A stretch of DNA of 64,000 bases from an uncultured Roseovarius sp. (lineage in GTDB: Bacteria; Pseudomonadota; Alphaproteobacteria; Rhodobacterales; Rhodobacteraceae): assembly GCA_947496175.1 (NCBI GenBank), contig CANMBU010000003.1, forward strand, positions 372,001 through 436,000, given 5' to 3'. Below, in pieces: positions 4,052-14,858 of the stretch. A program made the translations under genes and the position numbers. Within the stretch, counting starts at the first letter, position 1, and each line of letters begins with the position of its first letter. The notes under the pieces were generated by a model. The model worked only from the letters and a program-made list of their open reading frames with translations. It was not told the DNA's origin and searched no databases.

Positions 4052-4080
4052 AAAAACCCCTGCCTTCAAATAGGCAGGGG
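4052..4080 (-). terminator. Rho-independent terminator after gap paralogue 2
   Basis: An 8-bp perfect GC-rich stem (CCCCTGCC / GGCAGGGG) with an 8-base loop is followed on the minus strand by five T residues. It lies 24 bases past the stop of the gap gene at 4105-5106 and before the small gene at 3842-3985, so it should limit read-through from one gap to the other. Confidence 0.85.
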
Positions 4081-4104: not shown

Positions 4105-5106
4105 TTAGGACAGGCGCGCCATGGCGACGGCCACATCGGCCATGCGGCAGGAAAAGCCCCATTCATTGTCGTACCAGGCCAGCACGCGCACCAGACGCCC
4201 GCCTGTGACCTTGGTCTGGTCGGGGGCAAAGATTGAGCTTTCCTCAGTGTGGTTGAAGTCGATGGAAACCTTGGGTTCGGGATCATAGGCCAGAACGCCT
4301 TTCATCGGGCCTGCTGCGGCCTCAGCCACGACTTCGTTCACGTCTGCCTCAGTGACGTCTTTCTTGGCGATGAAAGTGAGGTCCACGGCAGAGACATTCG
4401 GTGTGGGCACGCGGATGGCCGAGCCGTCAAGTTTACCTTTAAGGTCCGGCAGCACTTCGCCAAGCGCCTTGGCAGCCCCGGTTGAGGTCGGGATCATCGA
4501 CATGGCCGCAGCACGGGCGCGGTAGAGATCCTTGTGGCGGCGGTCAAGCGTGGGCTGATCGCCGGTATAGGCGTGGATCGTGGTCATGATGCCGCTCTCG
4601 ATGCCGATGCCCTCATGCAGCACCTTGGCCACAGGCGCCAGACAGTTGGTGGTGCACGACCCGTTCGAGATCATTCGCTCACCGGGCTGCATATCCTGAT
4701 CATTCACACCGTAAACAACCGTGCGGTCCACGTTCTTGCCCGGCGCCGAGAGCAGAACCTTGCCCGCGCCACGCTCCAGGTGTTTCTTGGCCTTTTCGCC
4801 GTCGTTGAATTTGCCGGTACATTCCAGCACGACATCCACACCGGACCAGTCCAGCTCGTCCATGTCATAGGTCGAGAACATCTCCATCGGTCCACGGCCC
4901 AGATCCATGGTGCCATCGCCCAGAGTGATCTCATTGGGAAAGCGGCCATGCACGCTGTCATATTTCATCAGATGCGCCGCTGTCTCCAGCGGGCCTGTGG
5001 CGTTGACCTTCGCCACCTTGATGTCATTGCGAGTGCTGGCGGCGATATGGGCGAGGGTACAGCGACCGATGCGGCCAAAGCCATTGATGCCGACGGTAAT
5101 GGTCAT
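4105..5106 (-). CDS. gap: glyceraldehyde-3-phosphate dehydrogenase, type I (paralogue 2)
   Basis: This 333-residue GAPDH has INGFGRIGR at residues 7-15, catalytic Cys151 in NGSCTTNC and the C-terminal WYDNEWGFSCRM. The strand-2 segment reads KVNATGP, without the Asp that selects NAD in most family members (AVND in paralogue 1). It may therefore accept NADP or both cofactors; this is inference from one position. The ORF-track start at 5184 adds 26 residues upstream of the normal N-terminus. The ATG at 5106 follows an AGGAG site and was chosen. A strong 25-bp dyad lies 88 bases upstream (5194-5218), suggesting control by a LacI-type repressor, and a terminator follows the gene. Confidence 0.95.
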   Translation of the reverse strand: MTITVGINGFGRIGRCTLAHIAASTRNDIKVAKVNATGPLETAAHLMKYDSVHGRFPNEITLGDGTMDLGRGPMEMFSTYDMDELDWSGVDVVLECTGKFNDGEKAKKHLERGAGKVLLSAPGKNVDRTVVYGVNDQDMQPGERMISNGSCTTNCLAPVAKVLHEGIGIESGIMTTIHAYTGDQPTLDRRHKDLYRARAAAMSMIPTSTGAAKALGEVLPDLKGKLDGSAIRVPTPNVSAVDLTFIAKKDVTEADVNEVVAEAAAGPMKGVLAYDPEPKVSIDFNHTEESSIFAPDQTKVTGGRLVRVLAWYDNEWGFSCRMADVAVAMARLS

Positions 5107-5431
5107 GAACAATCTCCTGAAACGAAGGGGTTTGGCAGGCATATAGACCCAGGTTTCCCGGCCCGAAAGGTGGAAAATGCCCAAAGCCCCGGTGTTTGCG
5201 GTAACGGTTATCGCAAACTGGAGAAGTTACCCTCAAAGAGGGAAACAATGACGCCAAAAACACCGGATTTCGCCAGGAGTTTTCGACTAAAGCCTGTCGG
5301 AGACGTCAAGGCGCTGCCAAAAAGTTAACGGCTAAAAAGATACCATAAATCAATCAAATTTTTGTCTTTGTTTGCCTACATCTTCTGAAGGCACGCAGAT
5401 ATTTGTATGCGGTTTGTAGGTTTGATCTGTC
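5107..5431. other. intergenic region between gap (minus) and Hint protein gene (plus)
   Basis: These 325 bases form a divergent promoter region. They hold the 25-bp operator-like dyad at 5194-5218. A clearly AT-rich stretch follows at about 5330-5400, where the promoter of the Hint protein gene may lie. No RNA gene was recognised. The plus-strand ORF running through this region (4534-5328) is a shadow of gap. Confidence 0.6.
5194..5218 (-). promoter_or_regulatory. operator-like dyad upstream of gap (LacI-type candidate)
   Basis: Two 12-base arms, GTTTGCGGTAAC and GTTATCGCAAAC, are reverse complements with one mismatch around a single central G. The core TAAC-G-GTTA resembles sites of LacI-family sugar and central-carbon regulators in alphaproteobacteria. 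It lies about 88 bases before the gap start codon. The regulator identity is inference. Confidence 0.6.
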
Positions 5432-6463
5432 ATGGCAACTTTTGACTTTACGGTCCCAATCTACGGGTTTGACCAATGGGTTGGCGCGGACACGACCAGT
5501 ACGGTCAGCTACCCGGTTGGTACAACGTTTTCCCTAAACTCGGATGCTGCGTTGACGGTCATTGATGTCCAGGATGACGACGGGAACCCGGTTGGCTCGC
5601 CAGACAATGAATTCAGCGACGGGTTTATTGACACCCCGGGTGATGGCTCTACCCCGTCCACAGCGAACAATGACCAAGTCCTGACACAACCAGTTACAAT
5701 AAACGGCCAGAGCTTCGGCGTTGGGGACCAGGTTGAGTTGGAATTTGCCTTTACGACCACCACTGGCGAAACCTTTTGGGTCATTCGGATCAACAACATA
5801 AACGTTGGGATCAGCGGACCCTCTTTGCCAGTCCCCGGAACAACATACGAAGTTGCCAGCAGTGGAGACGGTGAGTTCACACCGGTCAGCGATGTTCCGT
5901 GTTTTGTGGATGGTGCGTTGATCCAGACCCCTAATGGCATGGTTCCCATAGAAAATCTGAAGGCGGGGGATGTCGTCACAACATTAGACCATGGAGTTCA
6001 ACCAATTAAATGGACAGGTGCGCGTCGTGTGAGCCCGCTGGACATGTTGTTTTTCCCCGATCTACGACCTATCAAGCTGTGTGCGTATGCGCTCGGCGTG
6101 CACGGTCCCGCCGAGCCGCTTTTCTTGTCACCTAATCACAGAGTGATGGTTCCAAGCACGGCGTTAGAAGTTTACTTTGCCGAGCTTGAAATGCTGGCCG
6201 CAGCAAAACATCTGGTGAATGGAACGACCATATCAGTCACGCGTCCGAAAGCGGCGTTTTGTTACCGGCATGTCATGTTGGAAAACCATGAAATCCTACT
6301 CGTGAATGGCGTGCCTTGCGAAAGCCTGTATCCCGGAGGTCAGGGCACATTCGGGGAACGGCTTCTGGAGGCAGATCTATTTGGTGGGGGGCACGCGGCG
6401 CATAGTTCGTTGGTGCGTCCGGTTTTACGGAAATATGAAGCACAGCTTTTGATTCTTGAATAG
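5432..6463 (+). CDS. Hint-domain (Hint_2) protein 1
   Basis: This is a 343-residue protein without an obvious signal peptide. Residues 1-150 are acidic, rich in Thr, Gly and Asp, and beta-strand-like, of unknown family. A Hint_2 (intein/hedgehog-like) domain starts near residue 155 with PCFVDGALIQTPNGMVPIEN and AGDVVTTLDHG. It continues with LSPNHRVMV and ends with VMLENHEILLVNG and PCESLYPG. The N-terminal Cys and the NHR and HE motifs are the usual self-processing residues. No C-extein follows, so cleavage rather than splicing would be expected. A second protein with the same C-terminal domain lies at 15689-16828. Such proteins are common in Roseobacters and are thought to be secreted or surface-bound; their role is not established. 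Confidence 0.82.
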   Translation: MATFDFTVPIYGFDQWVGADTTSTVSYPVGTTFSLNSDAALTVIDVQDDDGNPVGSPDNEFSDGFIDTPGDGSTPSTANNDQVLTQPVTINGQSFGVGDQVELEFAFTTTTGETFWVIRINNINVGISGPSLPVPGTTYEVASSGDGEFTPVSDVPCFVDGALIQTPNGMVPIENLKAGDVVTTLDHGVQPIKWTGARRVSPLDMLFFPDLRPIKLCAYALGVHGPAEPLFLSPNHRVMVPSTALEVYFAELEMLAAAKHLVNGTTISVTRPKAAFCYRHVMLENHEILLVNGVPCESLYPGGQGTFGERLLEADLFGGGHAAHSSLVRPVLRKYEAQLLILE

Positions 6464-9894: not shown

Positions 9895-10776
9895 TTACGC
9901 CACCATCTTTTCGACCGCATCCCCGAAAGAGGATGGTGTGGGGACAATTGTCACACCGGCCTCTTGCAGAATGTCGACTTTTTCTTGTGCGGATTCCCCA
10001 AAGGCGGACACGATGGCACCGGCGTGGCCCATACGCCGCCCTTTGGGAGCCGAAAGACCCGCAATATAGGCCGCGACCGGTTTGCTCATGTGATCCCGGA
10101 TGTATTCGGCGGCCTCGGCCTCTTGCGGGCCACCAATCTCACCGACCAGAACAACTGCGTCTGTGTCCGGGTCCGCTTCGAACAGCTCAAGTATGTCCTT
10201 GAAGCTTGACCCGTTGATCGGGTCTCCGCCGATGCCGATGGAGGATGACACGCCAATGCCGCGCTCACTCATCTGGCTGGCCGCCTCATAGCCCAGCGTG
10301 CCAGAGCGCCCGACGATGCCCACACGGCCCGGCTTGTAGATATGCGGGGGCATCAGACCGGCAAAACCTTCGCCAGGTGTGATGATGCCCGCACAGTTGG
10401 GTCCGATGAGGCGCATGCGCTTTTCTTCCTTATAGCGGCGCATGTAGCGTTTGACGTGGATCATGTCCTGCGCCGGGATGCCGTCTGCGATGCAGACACA
10501 GGTTTGGATACCCGCGTCCGCGGCTTCCATGATGCTGTCTGCTGCAAAGGGCGGGGGCACAAAGCTCACCACCAGATCCGCACCGGTTTCGGCCACAGCC
10601 CCTTTGACAGTGTTGAAGACCGGCAGACCAAGATGCTTGGTGCCGCCTTTGCCCGGGGTGACACCCCCTACAACATTGGTGCCGCGGTTGATCATATCCT
10701 GAGTGTGAAAACTTCCGATGCGGCCGGTGATGCCGGTGACAAGAACCTTGGTGTCTTTGTTGATGAGAATAGCCAT
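9895..10776 (-). CDS. mtkB: malate-CoA ligase (malate thiokinase) beta-type subunit, SucD-like
   Basis: This 293-residue SucD-type subunit has the CoA-binding Rossmann start ([20 protein letters not shown]). It has the active-site His region [11 protein letters not shown], where a phosphohistidine forms during ligase turnover. With MtkA it would convert malate, ATP and CoA to malyl-CoA, the step of the serine cycle before cleavage to glyoxylate and acetyl-CoA. The alternative is plain succinyl-CoA ligase. The neighbours (hydroxypyruvate reductase, serine-glyoxylate aminotransferase) and the resemblance to remembered methylotroph MtkB favour malate. The start MAILINKD (10776) overlaps the mtkA stop by one base, replacing the longer ORF-track start. 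Confidence 0.85.
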
Positions 10777-11960
10777 CAGCTTGCCTCCGCCATTTGAGTT
10801 GCGCGCCATGCTGAGACAACTTTGTCAGCCGCTTCTGCCAGCGAGTTTGCTGTTTCGATGTTCAGACCACTCTCTGAGAGCAGCTTGAGACCTTCTTCGA
10901 CATTTGTGCCCGACAGACGTACCACCAGAGGCATTTTCAGATCGAGTTCCTTGACCGCGAGGATCACACCTTCGGCGATCCAGTCGCAGCGGTTGATGCC
11001 CGCGAAGATGTTCACGAGGATGGCTTCGACATTGGGGTCATTGAGCACCGCCTTGAAGGATTTAAGAACCCGCTCAGGGCTTGCACCGCCGCCCACGTCT
11101 AGGAAGTTGGCAGGCTCACCACCGGCCATTTTGATCATGTCGAGCGTCGCCATGGCCAGGCCCGCACCATTTACGATGCAGCCAATTTCGCCTTCAAGGC
11201 CGATATAGTTCAGACCGCGATCACCGGCATAGGTTTCGCGTGGGTCTTCCTGGCTCTTGTCGCGCAGCTCGGAAATCTTGGGATGTCGGTAGAGCGCATT
11301 GGTGTCAAAGCTCACCTTGGCATCGAGCGCCACGATCTCATTGCTGGCGGTCACCACCAGCGGGTTGATCTCGACCATGTTGGCGTCCATTTCCGACATC
11401 ATCTGGTAACAGCCCATGATGGTCTTGCTTGCCTGCGCGATGAGTTGGGGTTCCAGCCCAAGGGAGAAAGCAATCTCACGTGCCTGGAAGGCCTGCATGC
11501 CCACGGCCGGGTCAACGACCGAACGAATGATCGAGTCAGGCTCTTCGGCAGAGATTTCTTCAATCTCCATCCCGCCTTCGGCAGAGGCAACCACGACCAC
11601 GCGTTCCAATTTACGGTCCATCACGAAGCCCAGGTAAATTTCCTGCCCAATATCCGTGGCTTCTTCGATGTAAAGGCGGCTGACCATTTTGCCCTGTGGG
11701 CCGGTTTGATGAGTTACGAGCTTGCGGCCGAGCATCCATTGCGCGGCATCCCAAATCTCTTCTTCGCTTTTACAGATGCGCACACCGCCTGCTTTGCCGC
11801 GGGCGCCTGAGTGGATTTGTGCTTTGACCACCCAAGAGTCGCCCGAAAGTTCGGAACAGCGATAGACAGCCTGTTCTGGGCTGTAGGCGATACCCCCGCG
11901 CGGAATATTAACTCCGAATTTGCTGAGCAGTTTCTTAGCCTGGTATTCGTGGATATCCAT
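10776..11960 (-). CDS. mtkA: malate-CoA ligase (malate thiokinase) ATP-grasp subunit, SucC-like
   Basis: This 394-residue SucC-type subunit has an ATP-grasp domain ([41 protein letters not shown]) and a CoA-ligase domain ([48 protein letters not shown]). Stretches such as KTIMGCY and [19 protein letters not shown] resemble methylotroph MtkA more than the citric-acid-cycle SucC, as far as memory allows. It forms a complex with MtkB, which is translationally coupled to it. The track gives MMDIHEYQ; the second Met matches the family start. The 5' region carries a 19-bp dyad at 12052-12070 that also occurs before the aminotransferase gene. Confidence 0.87.
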
Positions 11961-12051
11961 CAAACGGACCCTCCTTTGAGAAGTATAGTCTCAATGTGGG
12001 CCATGTCTGATGGCAGAGCTATGTCCCTGCGGGTAAGAAATTGCGCACCGC

Positions 12052-12070
12052 GGGTAGGTGCGGGCTACCC
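12052..12070 (-). promoter_or_regulatory. shared serine-cycle operator, copy upstream of mtkA
   Basis: The 19-bp sequence GGGTAGGTGCGGGCTACCC has 6-bp perfect arms (GGGTAG/CTACCC) around 7 bases. It lies about 92 bases before the mtkA start. The same outline, GGGTAGGT-N5-CTACCC, occurs at 14806-14824 before the aminotransferase gene. Confidence 0.65.
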
Positions 12071-12229
12071 ATTGAACAGGTTTCTGGATGCAATGGGATG
12101 CGGAGGTTTGGATTTTCTTATTAAAGTCATAGTGTTTTGGCTACATGCCGTTTCACAGGGAAGTGGAATTTTGCAAAACTCCACATTGGAAAACTGCAAT
12201 TTTCCATTTCCTTTGCGGCAAACACGCTT

Positions 12230-12457
12230 CTACAAAATGCGGCGTATCGGTTCGCGGTTACAAAAAATGACTAGCTGGCCGGCATTATCGACCGCTTGAA
12301 ATCCGCGACGCTCAAGTTCTCGCAGGAAAGTAGTCCGACCAACATAACGTTCGATATCTCGTACGCTCCGCCTGATCACGCTTCCATCGCGCGCGGCCTT
12401 TGCGGCAAAGATGCCTGCCATCCAATGTTCAGGCGTAATCGCGCCATTTTGTGTCAT
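12230..12457 (-). CDS. small conserved-looking protein, 75 residues, unknown function
   Basis: This 75-residue product (MTQNGAITPEHWMAGIFAAK to VIFCNREPIRRIL) is basic and compact, with pattern RRSVRDIERYVGRTTFLREL and no membrane segment. It lies between mtkA and the hydroxypyruvate reductase gene in the same orientation, 34 bases beyond the reductase stop, so it may be cotranscribed. I recall similar small Rhodobacteraceae proteins carried in databases under a doubtful phosphoribosylanthranilate isomerase label; this size is far too short for that enzyme. It could bind nucleic acid, but no motif proves it. Confidence 0.6.
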   Translation of the reverse strand: MTQNGAITPEHWMAGIFAAKAARDGSVIRRSVRDIERYVGRTTFLRELERRGFQAVDNAGQLVIFCNREPIRRIL

Positions 12458-12491
12458 GGCGCGATACTTGATCTCTTTTGTTAAGACCGAG

Positions 12492-13475
12492 TTAATCCTG
12501 GCTCGGCGTTACCAGATCCCCGGGACGCTCACCTTTCAGGAACGCTTCCAAGTTATCGATGGCGCGATGGCCCATGGCTTCGCGCGTGCCATCCGTGGCA
12601 CTTCCCAGATGCGGGGCGAGAACAATATTGTCATAGGTTAGAAAGCGCGGATCAAGCGCAGGTTCATTGTGATAGACATCCAGTCCTGCTGCAGACAGTT
12701 TACCACTGTCGAGCGCATCAAAGAGCGCATCTTCATCCACCACATCGCCGCGCGCTGAATTCACTAGGATCGCGCCAGGTTTCAAAGCGCCAAACACATC
12801 GGCGTTGATCATTTTGTAAGTATCTGCGCCACCGGGGCAGTGCAGGGATAAGAAATCGGACTGCGCCGCAACCTCTGTCATCGACCCAAGCTGTTCGGCA
12901 TTGCCATTGGCCGCCTTGATGTCGTCTGGCACATCCCACGCATCCTGAAACACCACGCGCATGCCAAACCCGTTATGCGCCCGGCGCGCCATCGCCTGAC
13001 CGATGCGGCCAAACCCGATGATGCCGATTGTGGCCCCGGTGACCTTTTTGCCGATCATGTGAGTGGGCCGCCAACCTTCCCAGCCACCAGCTCGTGTTTC
13101 ACGCTCACCTTCGCCGATACGGCGCGCGGCGGCAAACATCAGGCCCATCGCCAAGTCAGCGGTGCAATCGGTGAGCACATCAGGCGTGTTGGTGACAGCA
13201 ATGCCGTTGGCGTGCGCCGCATCGACATCAATGTGATTGAAACCTACGCCGTAATTGGCAAAGATCTTCAGCTTGCCCTTCGCGGCAGGGTAGAACGCCG
13301 CCGGGATTTTATCCGAGACAGTGGGCATGATCACGTCATAGGTCTCTGCCGCGGTCATCCACTCCTCATGGCTCATGGACGTGTCGGGGTTGCGCAGCGT
13401 CACGTCGCCAAGCCCGGCCTGCTCAAGACGGTCTTCCGCCGCCTTGGGCCAGGCCCTGGTCACCAAAATTTTCAT
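12492..13475 (-). CDS. hprA: hydroxypyruvate/glyoxylate reductase (D-2-hydroxyacid dehydrogenase)
   Basis: This 327-residue enzyme of the D-isomer-specific 2-hydroxyacid dehydrogenase family has the Rossmann motif GATIGIIGFGRIGQAMARRA near residue 150. The catalytic Arg is in VNSARGDVVDEDAL, the Glu in YHNEPALDP, and the His in VLAPHLGSAT. It reduces hydroxypyruvate to D-glycerate (or glyoxylate to glycolate) with NAD(P)H. In the serine cycle it follows the aminotransferase encoded immediately upstream (stop/start gap of 15 bases). Substrate choice between hydroxypyruvate and glyoxylate rests on the gene neighbourhood. Confidence 0.88.
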   Translation of the reverse strand: MKILVTRAWPKAAEDRLEQAGLGDVTLRNPDTSMSHEEWMTAAETYDVIMPTVSDKIPAAFYPAAKGKLKIFANYGVGFNHIDVDAAHANGIAVTNTPDVLTDCTADLAMGLMFAAARRIGEGERETRAGGWEGWRPTHMIGKKVTGATIGIIGFGRIGQAMARRAHNGFGMRVVFQDAWDVPDDIKAANGNAEQLGSMTEVAAQSDFLSLHCPGGADTYKMINADVFGALKPGAILVNSARGDVVDEDALFDALDSGKLSAAGLDVYHNEPALDPRFLTYDNIVLAPHLGSATDGTREAMGHRAIDNLEAFLKGERPGDLVTPSQD

Positions 13476-13490
13476 TTATCTTCCTGTCTT

Positions 13491-14702
13491 TCAGGCCGCT
13501 TTCACGACCGGCGCGTTCACATTAGGTGTGGTCGCACGAAATTCGGCTTGTGCCGCGGCCACGCCGGACCCTGGCTCAATTTTCGCACCGGCGTCAACCA
13601 GAGCCATTTCCGCCGCAGAAATTGCACCGCAGAGCATGACCGGGTTGAGAGAGCCCAAATGCCCGATACGGAAGGCTTTGCCCATCAGTTTGTTGAGACC
13701 TGTACCCAGCGACGTTTGGTACTTGTAATAGGCGGTCGAGATCACATCGCGTGCGTCCACACCCTCAGGAGCGTAAATCGCCGAAACGGTGTCTGAGTGC
13801 CATTCGGGGCCACGCGCCACCAATTCGCACCCGTCCCATGCGCCTACGGCTGCACGGACACCTTCTGCCAAACGCTTGTGGCGTGCCCAGATGGTCTCCA
13901 TGCCCGTATCCAGCATCAAATCAAGCGAACACCGCAGACCGCGCAGAAGTTGGGTCGCAGGCGTGTAAGGGAAATAGCCGGTATCATTCAGCTTGATCAT
14001 ATCTTCAAAGCTGAAATAGCAGCGCGCCATACCAGCATTTTCAAGAGCCTTGTTGGCCGCAAGCGCTTTCTCCGACGCACCAAGAATGCCAAGGCCAGCA
14101 GGCAGCATAAAGCCCTTCTGAGAGCCGGAGACGGCGAGATCCACGCCCCATTTGTCCATCTCAAATTCGATGGACGCGATGGAGCTAACACCATCAACAA
14201 ACAGCATCGCAGGGTGGTCAGCGGCATCAAGCGCTTTGCGTACGCCCTCTATGTCTGACGTCACGCCAGTGGCGGTTTCGTTTTGCGTGGCAAAGACTGC
14301 CTTGATCTTGTGCTCTTTGTCGGCGGCGAGCCGCGTCGCGTACTCATCAACCGGCACGCCTTTGCCCCATTCGACGTCGATCACTTCGACATCAAGGCCC
14401 AGACGCTCGGCCATATCGACCCAGAGAAGAGAAAACTGACCAAACCGCGACATCAGCACCTTGTCGCCGGCCTGCAGTGTGTTTTGAATGGCCGATTCCC
14501 AAGCACCGGTGCCGGAAGAGGGGAACACGAAAATCCGACCCGTCTCCATGCGGTAGGCCTTTTTGAGATCAGTCAGCAGACCTTGGACAAAATCCGGAAA
14601 GTCCGGAGCGCGCATGTCTTCCATGGGCAGGTTCATCGCCTGACGGACAGGCTCTGGCACATTTGTTGGCCCAGGAATGTAGAGGTGTTGATATCCGTTC
14701 AT
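13491..14702 (-). CDS. sgaA: serine-glyoxylate aminotransferase
   Basis: This 403-residue class-V aminotransferase needs pyridoxal phosphate. The Schiff-base Lys is K196 in SGSQKGFMLP; FVDGVSSIASIEFEMDKW supplies the cofactor-binding Asp, and YIPGPTNVPEPVR is the family start. It transfers the amino group of serine to glyoxylate, giving hydroxypyruvate and glycine, and feeds the reductase gene downstream. The ORF-track start at 14828 adds 42 residues unlike the family. The ATG at 14702 follows a GGAG site and was chosen. The operator-like dyad at 14806-14824 lies about 104 bases upstream. Confidence 0.92.
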   Translation of the reverse strand: MNGYQHLYIPGPTNVPEPVRQAMNLPMEDMRAPDFPDFVQGLLTDLKKAYRMETGRIFVFPSSGTGAWESAIQNTLQAGDKVLMSRFGQFSLLWVDMAERLGLDVEVIDVEWGKGVPVDEYATRLAADKEHKIKAVFATQNETATGVTSDIEGVRKALDAADHPAMLFVDGVSSIASIEFEMDKWGVDLAVSGSQKGFMLPAGLGILGASEKALAANKALENAGMARCYFSFEDMIKLNDTGYFPYTPATQLLRGLRCSLDLMLDTGMETIWARHKRLAEGVRAAVGAWDGCELVARGPEWHSDTVSAIYAPEGVDARDVISTAYYKYQTSLGTGLNKLMGKAFRIGHLGSLNPVMLCGAISAAEMALVDAGAKIEPGSGVAAAQAEFRATTPNVNAPVVKAA

Positions 14703-14805
14703 AGTCGTCGCGCTCCATAACTCAATCTCTTTGACGGACGGAGCTAACATGCAATTTTCGTCTGAAAAGAGGGTTTTTTCGTCAAAGCATCCGAAACTGC
14801 CCAAT

Positions 14806-14824
14806 GGGTAGGTAATTCCTACCC
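14806..14824 (-). promoter_or_regulatory. shared serine-cycle operator, copy upstream of sgaA
   Basis: GGGTAGGTAATTCCTACCC has 7-bp perfect arms around 5 bases. It matches the mtkA copy at all positions outside the 5-base centre. It lies in the divergent region between sgaA and a LuxR-type regulator gene. Confidence 0.7.
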
Positions 14825-14858
14825 GCAAGGGTGAGAAAAAGCCGCGGAATCCCGGTCG

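Follow-up and report, generated by a model that had tools for sequence, protein, structure and literature searches.

The gap2 locus and its upstream dyad

The window, a 64-kb stretch (64,000 nucleotides) of DNA from an uncultured Roseovarius sp., carries two neighbouring gap genes, gap1 and gap2, the second of which is followed by a terminator-like hairpin (Table 1). The hairpin suggests separate transcription of gap2 and gap1. Upstream, gap2 faces a divergent gene at 5432-6463, which lies between gap2 and a transketolase gene and encodes a 343-aa protein with no NCBIfam match, recognised by eye as a Hint-domain protein. A serine-cycle-like set, also recognised by eye, is located at 9895-14828, and holds two succinyl/malate-CoA ligase-like genes together with one hydroxypyruvate reductase-like and one serine-glyoxylate aminotransferase-like gene.

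The NAD-selective Asp is absent from Gap2, as claimed in the initial annotation: VNATG takes the place of VND in the adjacent Gap1 and of ND in 3doc, a relative of solved structure. Given this replacement, Gap2 may plausibly have lost its selectivity for NAD and accept NADP in a biosynthetic role, and it can plausibly be regarded as a gluconeogenic, GapB-type GAPDH.

Between gap2 and the divergent gene, ~100 bp 5' of the gap2 ATG (5106), the DNA reads GTTTGCGGTAAC-G-GTTATCGCAAAC, confirming the 25-bp dyad with one arm mismatch and a central G that had been described there. Its 12-nt arms flank a 1-nt loop, with 11 of 12 arm pairs complementary (92%). It is the single 12+1+12 dyad with at most one mismatch in the window, where first-order Markov sequence would yield 0.22 per 64 kb, so that the symmetry by itself is a mild surprise at most. 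The dyad is raised above chance by its position before gap2, its retention in the closest three species, and a 21-bp core with no second copy in the genome at up to 3 mismatches. The bases upstream of the dyad diverge in those three species, and an alignment of the window's small clade with a single less close relative shows almost no variation in the dyad and poor conservation upstream of it. Absence from close relatives, named beforehand as the outcome that would count against the site, was thus not what we found. The shorter sequence TAACNGTTA alone occurs at 4 places in the genome, with no central-carbon gene among those seen at the other three. Scanning the dyad region for promoters and terminators gave no match.

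Table 1 Features of the gap2 locus (window coordinates).
Feature	Position	Strand	Basis
gap2, type I glyceraldehyde-3-phosphate dehydrogenase, likely regulated gene	4105..5106	-	NCBIfam TIGR01534, 403.6 bits vs cut-off 367.2
Terminator-like hairpin after gap2	4057..4080	-	Symmetric stem (listed on + by the tool); TTTTTG follows on the - strand
Putative -10 box TATATG	5140..5145	-	54 bp from proximal operator centre
Putative -35 region CTTTC	5165..5169	-	Fixed 19 bp from TATA across the genus
Composite dyad, two predicted operators 13 bp centre to centre	5194..5218	.	Symmetry, motif, matrix score
Predicted proximal operator GTTACCGCAAAC (gap2 strand)	5194..5205	-	Centre 93 bp before ATG; matrix 16.9
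Predicted second operator GTTTGCGATAAC (gap2 strand)	5207..5218	-	Centre 106 bp before ATG; matrix 16.9

Predicted even operators and a candidate regulator

Upstream of gap2 orthologs from ~35 Rhodobacteraceae genomes we found an even, CG-centred palindrome, GTTWNCGNWAAC, mostly in one to four copies. Both arms of the dyad match it without mismatch; on the gap2 strand the dyad reads GTTTGCGATAAC, one base, GTTACCGCAAAC. It is highly probable that these are two abutting, even, CG-centred operators, of which the 25-bp dyad is the composite. A scoring matrix was trained on promoters of the same genus, from which the window and the three relatives closest to it had been excluded. By this matrix the two arms take the top two places of the window, followed by a next best score of 12.0. 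Scores this high are rare, since only the dyad reaches 15 within the 64 kb. None of the 15 best sites of the window lies upstream of gap1.

At least one site was present in 73 of 74 gap2 promoters of the genus (window included), and in those 73 the proximal site is always there; chance sites at the same threshold amount to ~5 per 100,000 bases in shuffled promoters. A pair at exactly 13 bp occurs in 39 of the 74 and none occurs at 12 or 14 bp, the 13-bp pair having been gained or lost at least 12 times on a quick single-gene tree of gap2. Many genus promoters have a further site 41-42 bp upstream of the proximal operator. In other genera, sites were found in 32 of 33 promoters of gap2 orthologs, and most genera have the same even sites spaced 19, 23 or 30 bp apart.

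Single sites of the same kind stand before other central-carbon genes, in line with the earlier proposal that a LacI-type site serves to control central carbon metabolism. The motif scores 19.8 at ~43 bp before the start codon of pykA, 15.0 at ~117 bp before the start of pycA, and 17.0 before the gene of a LacI-family regulator itself. Upstream of pckA (G000:C1:492196-493587) are two identical operators, TGGTTGCGCTAACG, scoring 16.7 each and 22 bp apart (L214:1254-1289), which is the other preferred LacI-family spacing. The search proposed at the outset, for the dyad near pyc, pck, fbp and edd, gave a different result: the dyad itself is not near pyc or pck, no edd passes the cut-off, and no class I fbp was found. 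No site was found at zwf, a published target that is present in the genome.

Two further single matches lie just before a SulP-like transporter gene (L129:1501-1514, score 17.4) and a class V aminotransferase-like gene (L208:501-514, score 17.0), and are either further targets or chance. We do not claim them as targets, because the degenerate 14-mer pattern with one mismatch showed no genome-wide excess (24 occurrences vs 36 for the reversed control). As a separate observation, the best Edd match reached 227 vs a family cut-off of 708 bits and is probably a related dehydratase; with these Edd and class I FBPase gaps despite the presence of zwf, the sugar pathway of the strain may be unusual.

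A LacI-family regulon named GapR (RSP_1663) was predicted in all 13 Rhodobacteraceae studied by Ravcheev 2014 (PMC4052901), the available text of which lists as predicted targets gapB, pckA, pycA and pykA, and the regulator itself in five genomes. The present system is like it in family, even palindrome and these targets plus the regulator gene, as far as that text describes them, and differs in the missing zwf site and in having no edd that passes the cut-off. GapR was later named CceR, with gluconate-6-phosphate given as effector in a later study, and deletion of cceR in Paracoccus lowered gluconeogenic enzymes and raised glycolytic ones. According to papers that cite it, a 2015 mBio article by Imam reportedly deals with the GapR/CceR regulon of Rhodobacteraceae.

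The genome encodes three LacI-type HTH proteins. One of them (G000:C4:110828-111844) can be called GntR-like, although its best NCBIfam match, at 286 bits, stays under the cut-off of 400 for that model; it is 35% identical to E. coli GntR, and is present in 36 of 36 near-complete genomes of the genus at an identity of at least 79%. Of the 19 orthologs with a readable upstream region, 16 carry the motif ahead of the regulator gene at an almost constant position. Matching this candidate to GapR by motif and targets, we consider the dyad very probably a double operator for a LacI-family, GntR-like CceR; the GntR-like NCBIfam match fits a sensor of 6-phosphogluconate. The LacI proteins L086 and L088 may be alternative candidates.

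Promoter spacing and mode of control

Downstream of the proximal site, the arrangement CTTTC, 19 bp, TATA was found by simple search in 63 promoters of the genus, and all 73 were placed by matrix. The distance from operator centre to -10 falls into classes of 42-43 (3 promoters), 53-55 (43), 64-66 (23), 75 (2) and 86 bp (2), with no intermediate distances among the 73. The spacing class changed at least 10 times on the gap2 tree. Ten independent changes, all within one base of whole turns, would be improbable, roughly 0.29 to the tenth power by our own estimate if they are independent. Distances of 54-56 bp were found in all 16 promoters of other genera with a clear match. Whole-turn steps upstream of a core promoter are a mark of a regulator that has to face RNA polymerase. 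Because the operator spacing steps by whole helix turns, activation is the most likely mode for gap2, and it appears fairly likely that the regulator activates gap2 from one face of the DNA, with the start site putative.

Repression of gap2 through the same CceR double operator is unlikely. LacI-family regulators are mostly repressors, and several glycolytic genes are repressed by CceR according to the literature; however, the sites in the dyad are located entirely upstream of the putative promoter, in helical phase with it. The pykA site, in contrast to those of gap2, is near the start codon, a position that suits repression.

The initial annotation had read TAAC-G-GTTA as the core of a single operator. 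A lone odd-centred 25-bp operator with a TAAC-N-GTTA core, to which one dimer of a different regulator would bind, would account for the near-perfect odd symmetry in the window's clade and for two relatives (L202 and L205) that keep the inner halves despite a degraded outer half in the upstream site; odd palindromes are used by ~4% of LacI regulators in the 2014 survey, as given in its available text (PMC4052901). The long symmetry is, however, confined to that small clade, where the proximal site is GTTACCGCAAAC and the usual form is GTTATCGCTAAC. The odd dyad is not conserved as a whole: in 34 of the 73 genus promoters the proximal even site persists without a 13-bp partner, which makes the even site the unit. 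With the outer halves conserved too, and with even sites 19, 23 or 30 bp apart in most genera, we regard the single odd operator as quite improbable, and TAAC-G-GTTA as the predicted junction of two abutting even operators with CG centres.

That the site serves the divergent Hint-domain gene and not gap2 is very improbable: it does lie in the shared intergenic stretch, ~220 bp from the start at 5432, but sites stay before gap2 in many species with different farther-upstream sequence, and the spacing between them and the gap2 promoter is under constraint.

We return to a 13-bp double operator through which CceR would activate gap2 for gluconeogenesis, an explanation that is probable as a whole. 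In this mechanism, effector-free CceR would bind upstream of the gap2 promoter, centred at ~-66, and would touch RNA polymerase from a fixed helix face, activating gap2 for gluconeogenesis. Sugar catabolism would raise the effector, 6-phosphogluconate according to the literature, and CceR would let go. The second operator, 13 bp upstream, could give higher occupancy or offer an alternative, overlapping register. A tentative further idea is that the 13-bp pair forms a composite element of its own kind, at which two CceR dimers would bind at once or alternate, activating from a fixed face.

Relation to other LacI-family systems

The available text of the 2014 survey gives LacI-family site spacing peaks at 13, 22 and 32 bp, reports overlapping pairs at ~13 bp before 110 operons, with functional proof for GntR at gntKU, and offers no satisfying structural explanation for the 13-bp arrangement (PMC4052901). 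The E. coli gntKU promoter contains GTTACCGATAAC-A-GTTACCCGTAAC, in which a 13-bp spacing again separates two operators; layout and half-sites are those of the window pair, and the regulator is related. The two differ in setting: in gntKU a local repressor controls an operon for gluconate utilisation, whereas gap2 is a central-metabolic gene for which activation is likely. The window pair would be a new example of this 13-bp LacI-family class, under a GntR-like regulator. The double-operator kind is already known; the window pair and the helical phasing are not described in the available portions of the literature examined, and the accessible text of the 2014 survey makes no mention of such a pair at gapB (PMC4052901).

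Two other systems control similar pathways. Cra/FruR of enterobacteria is likewise a dual regulator of the LacI family, a repressor of glycolysis and an activator of gluconeogenesis, but it is another regulator with another effector, described as non-orthologous to the alphaproteobacterial ones. PckR of Rhizobiales provides LacI-family control of the same pathways, but is not orthologous and has a different motif.

The analysis turns a puzzling dyad into a testable part of a known global switch with which marine Rhodobacteraceae alternate between using sugars and gluconeogenesis, and adds a well-sampled case to the 13-bp overlapping LacI-family operators. The helical phasing offers natural evidence for an activator role in a member of a mainly repressor-type family. 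The natural promoter series, with spacings near 43, 54, 65, 75 and 86 bp and with or without the pair, would allow direct dissection of the arrangement.
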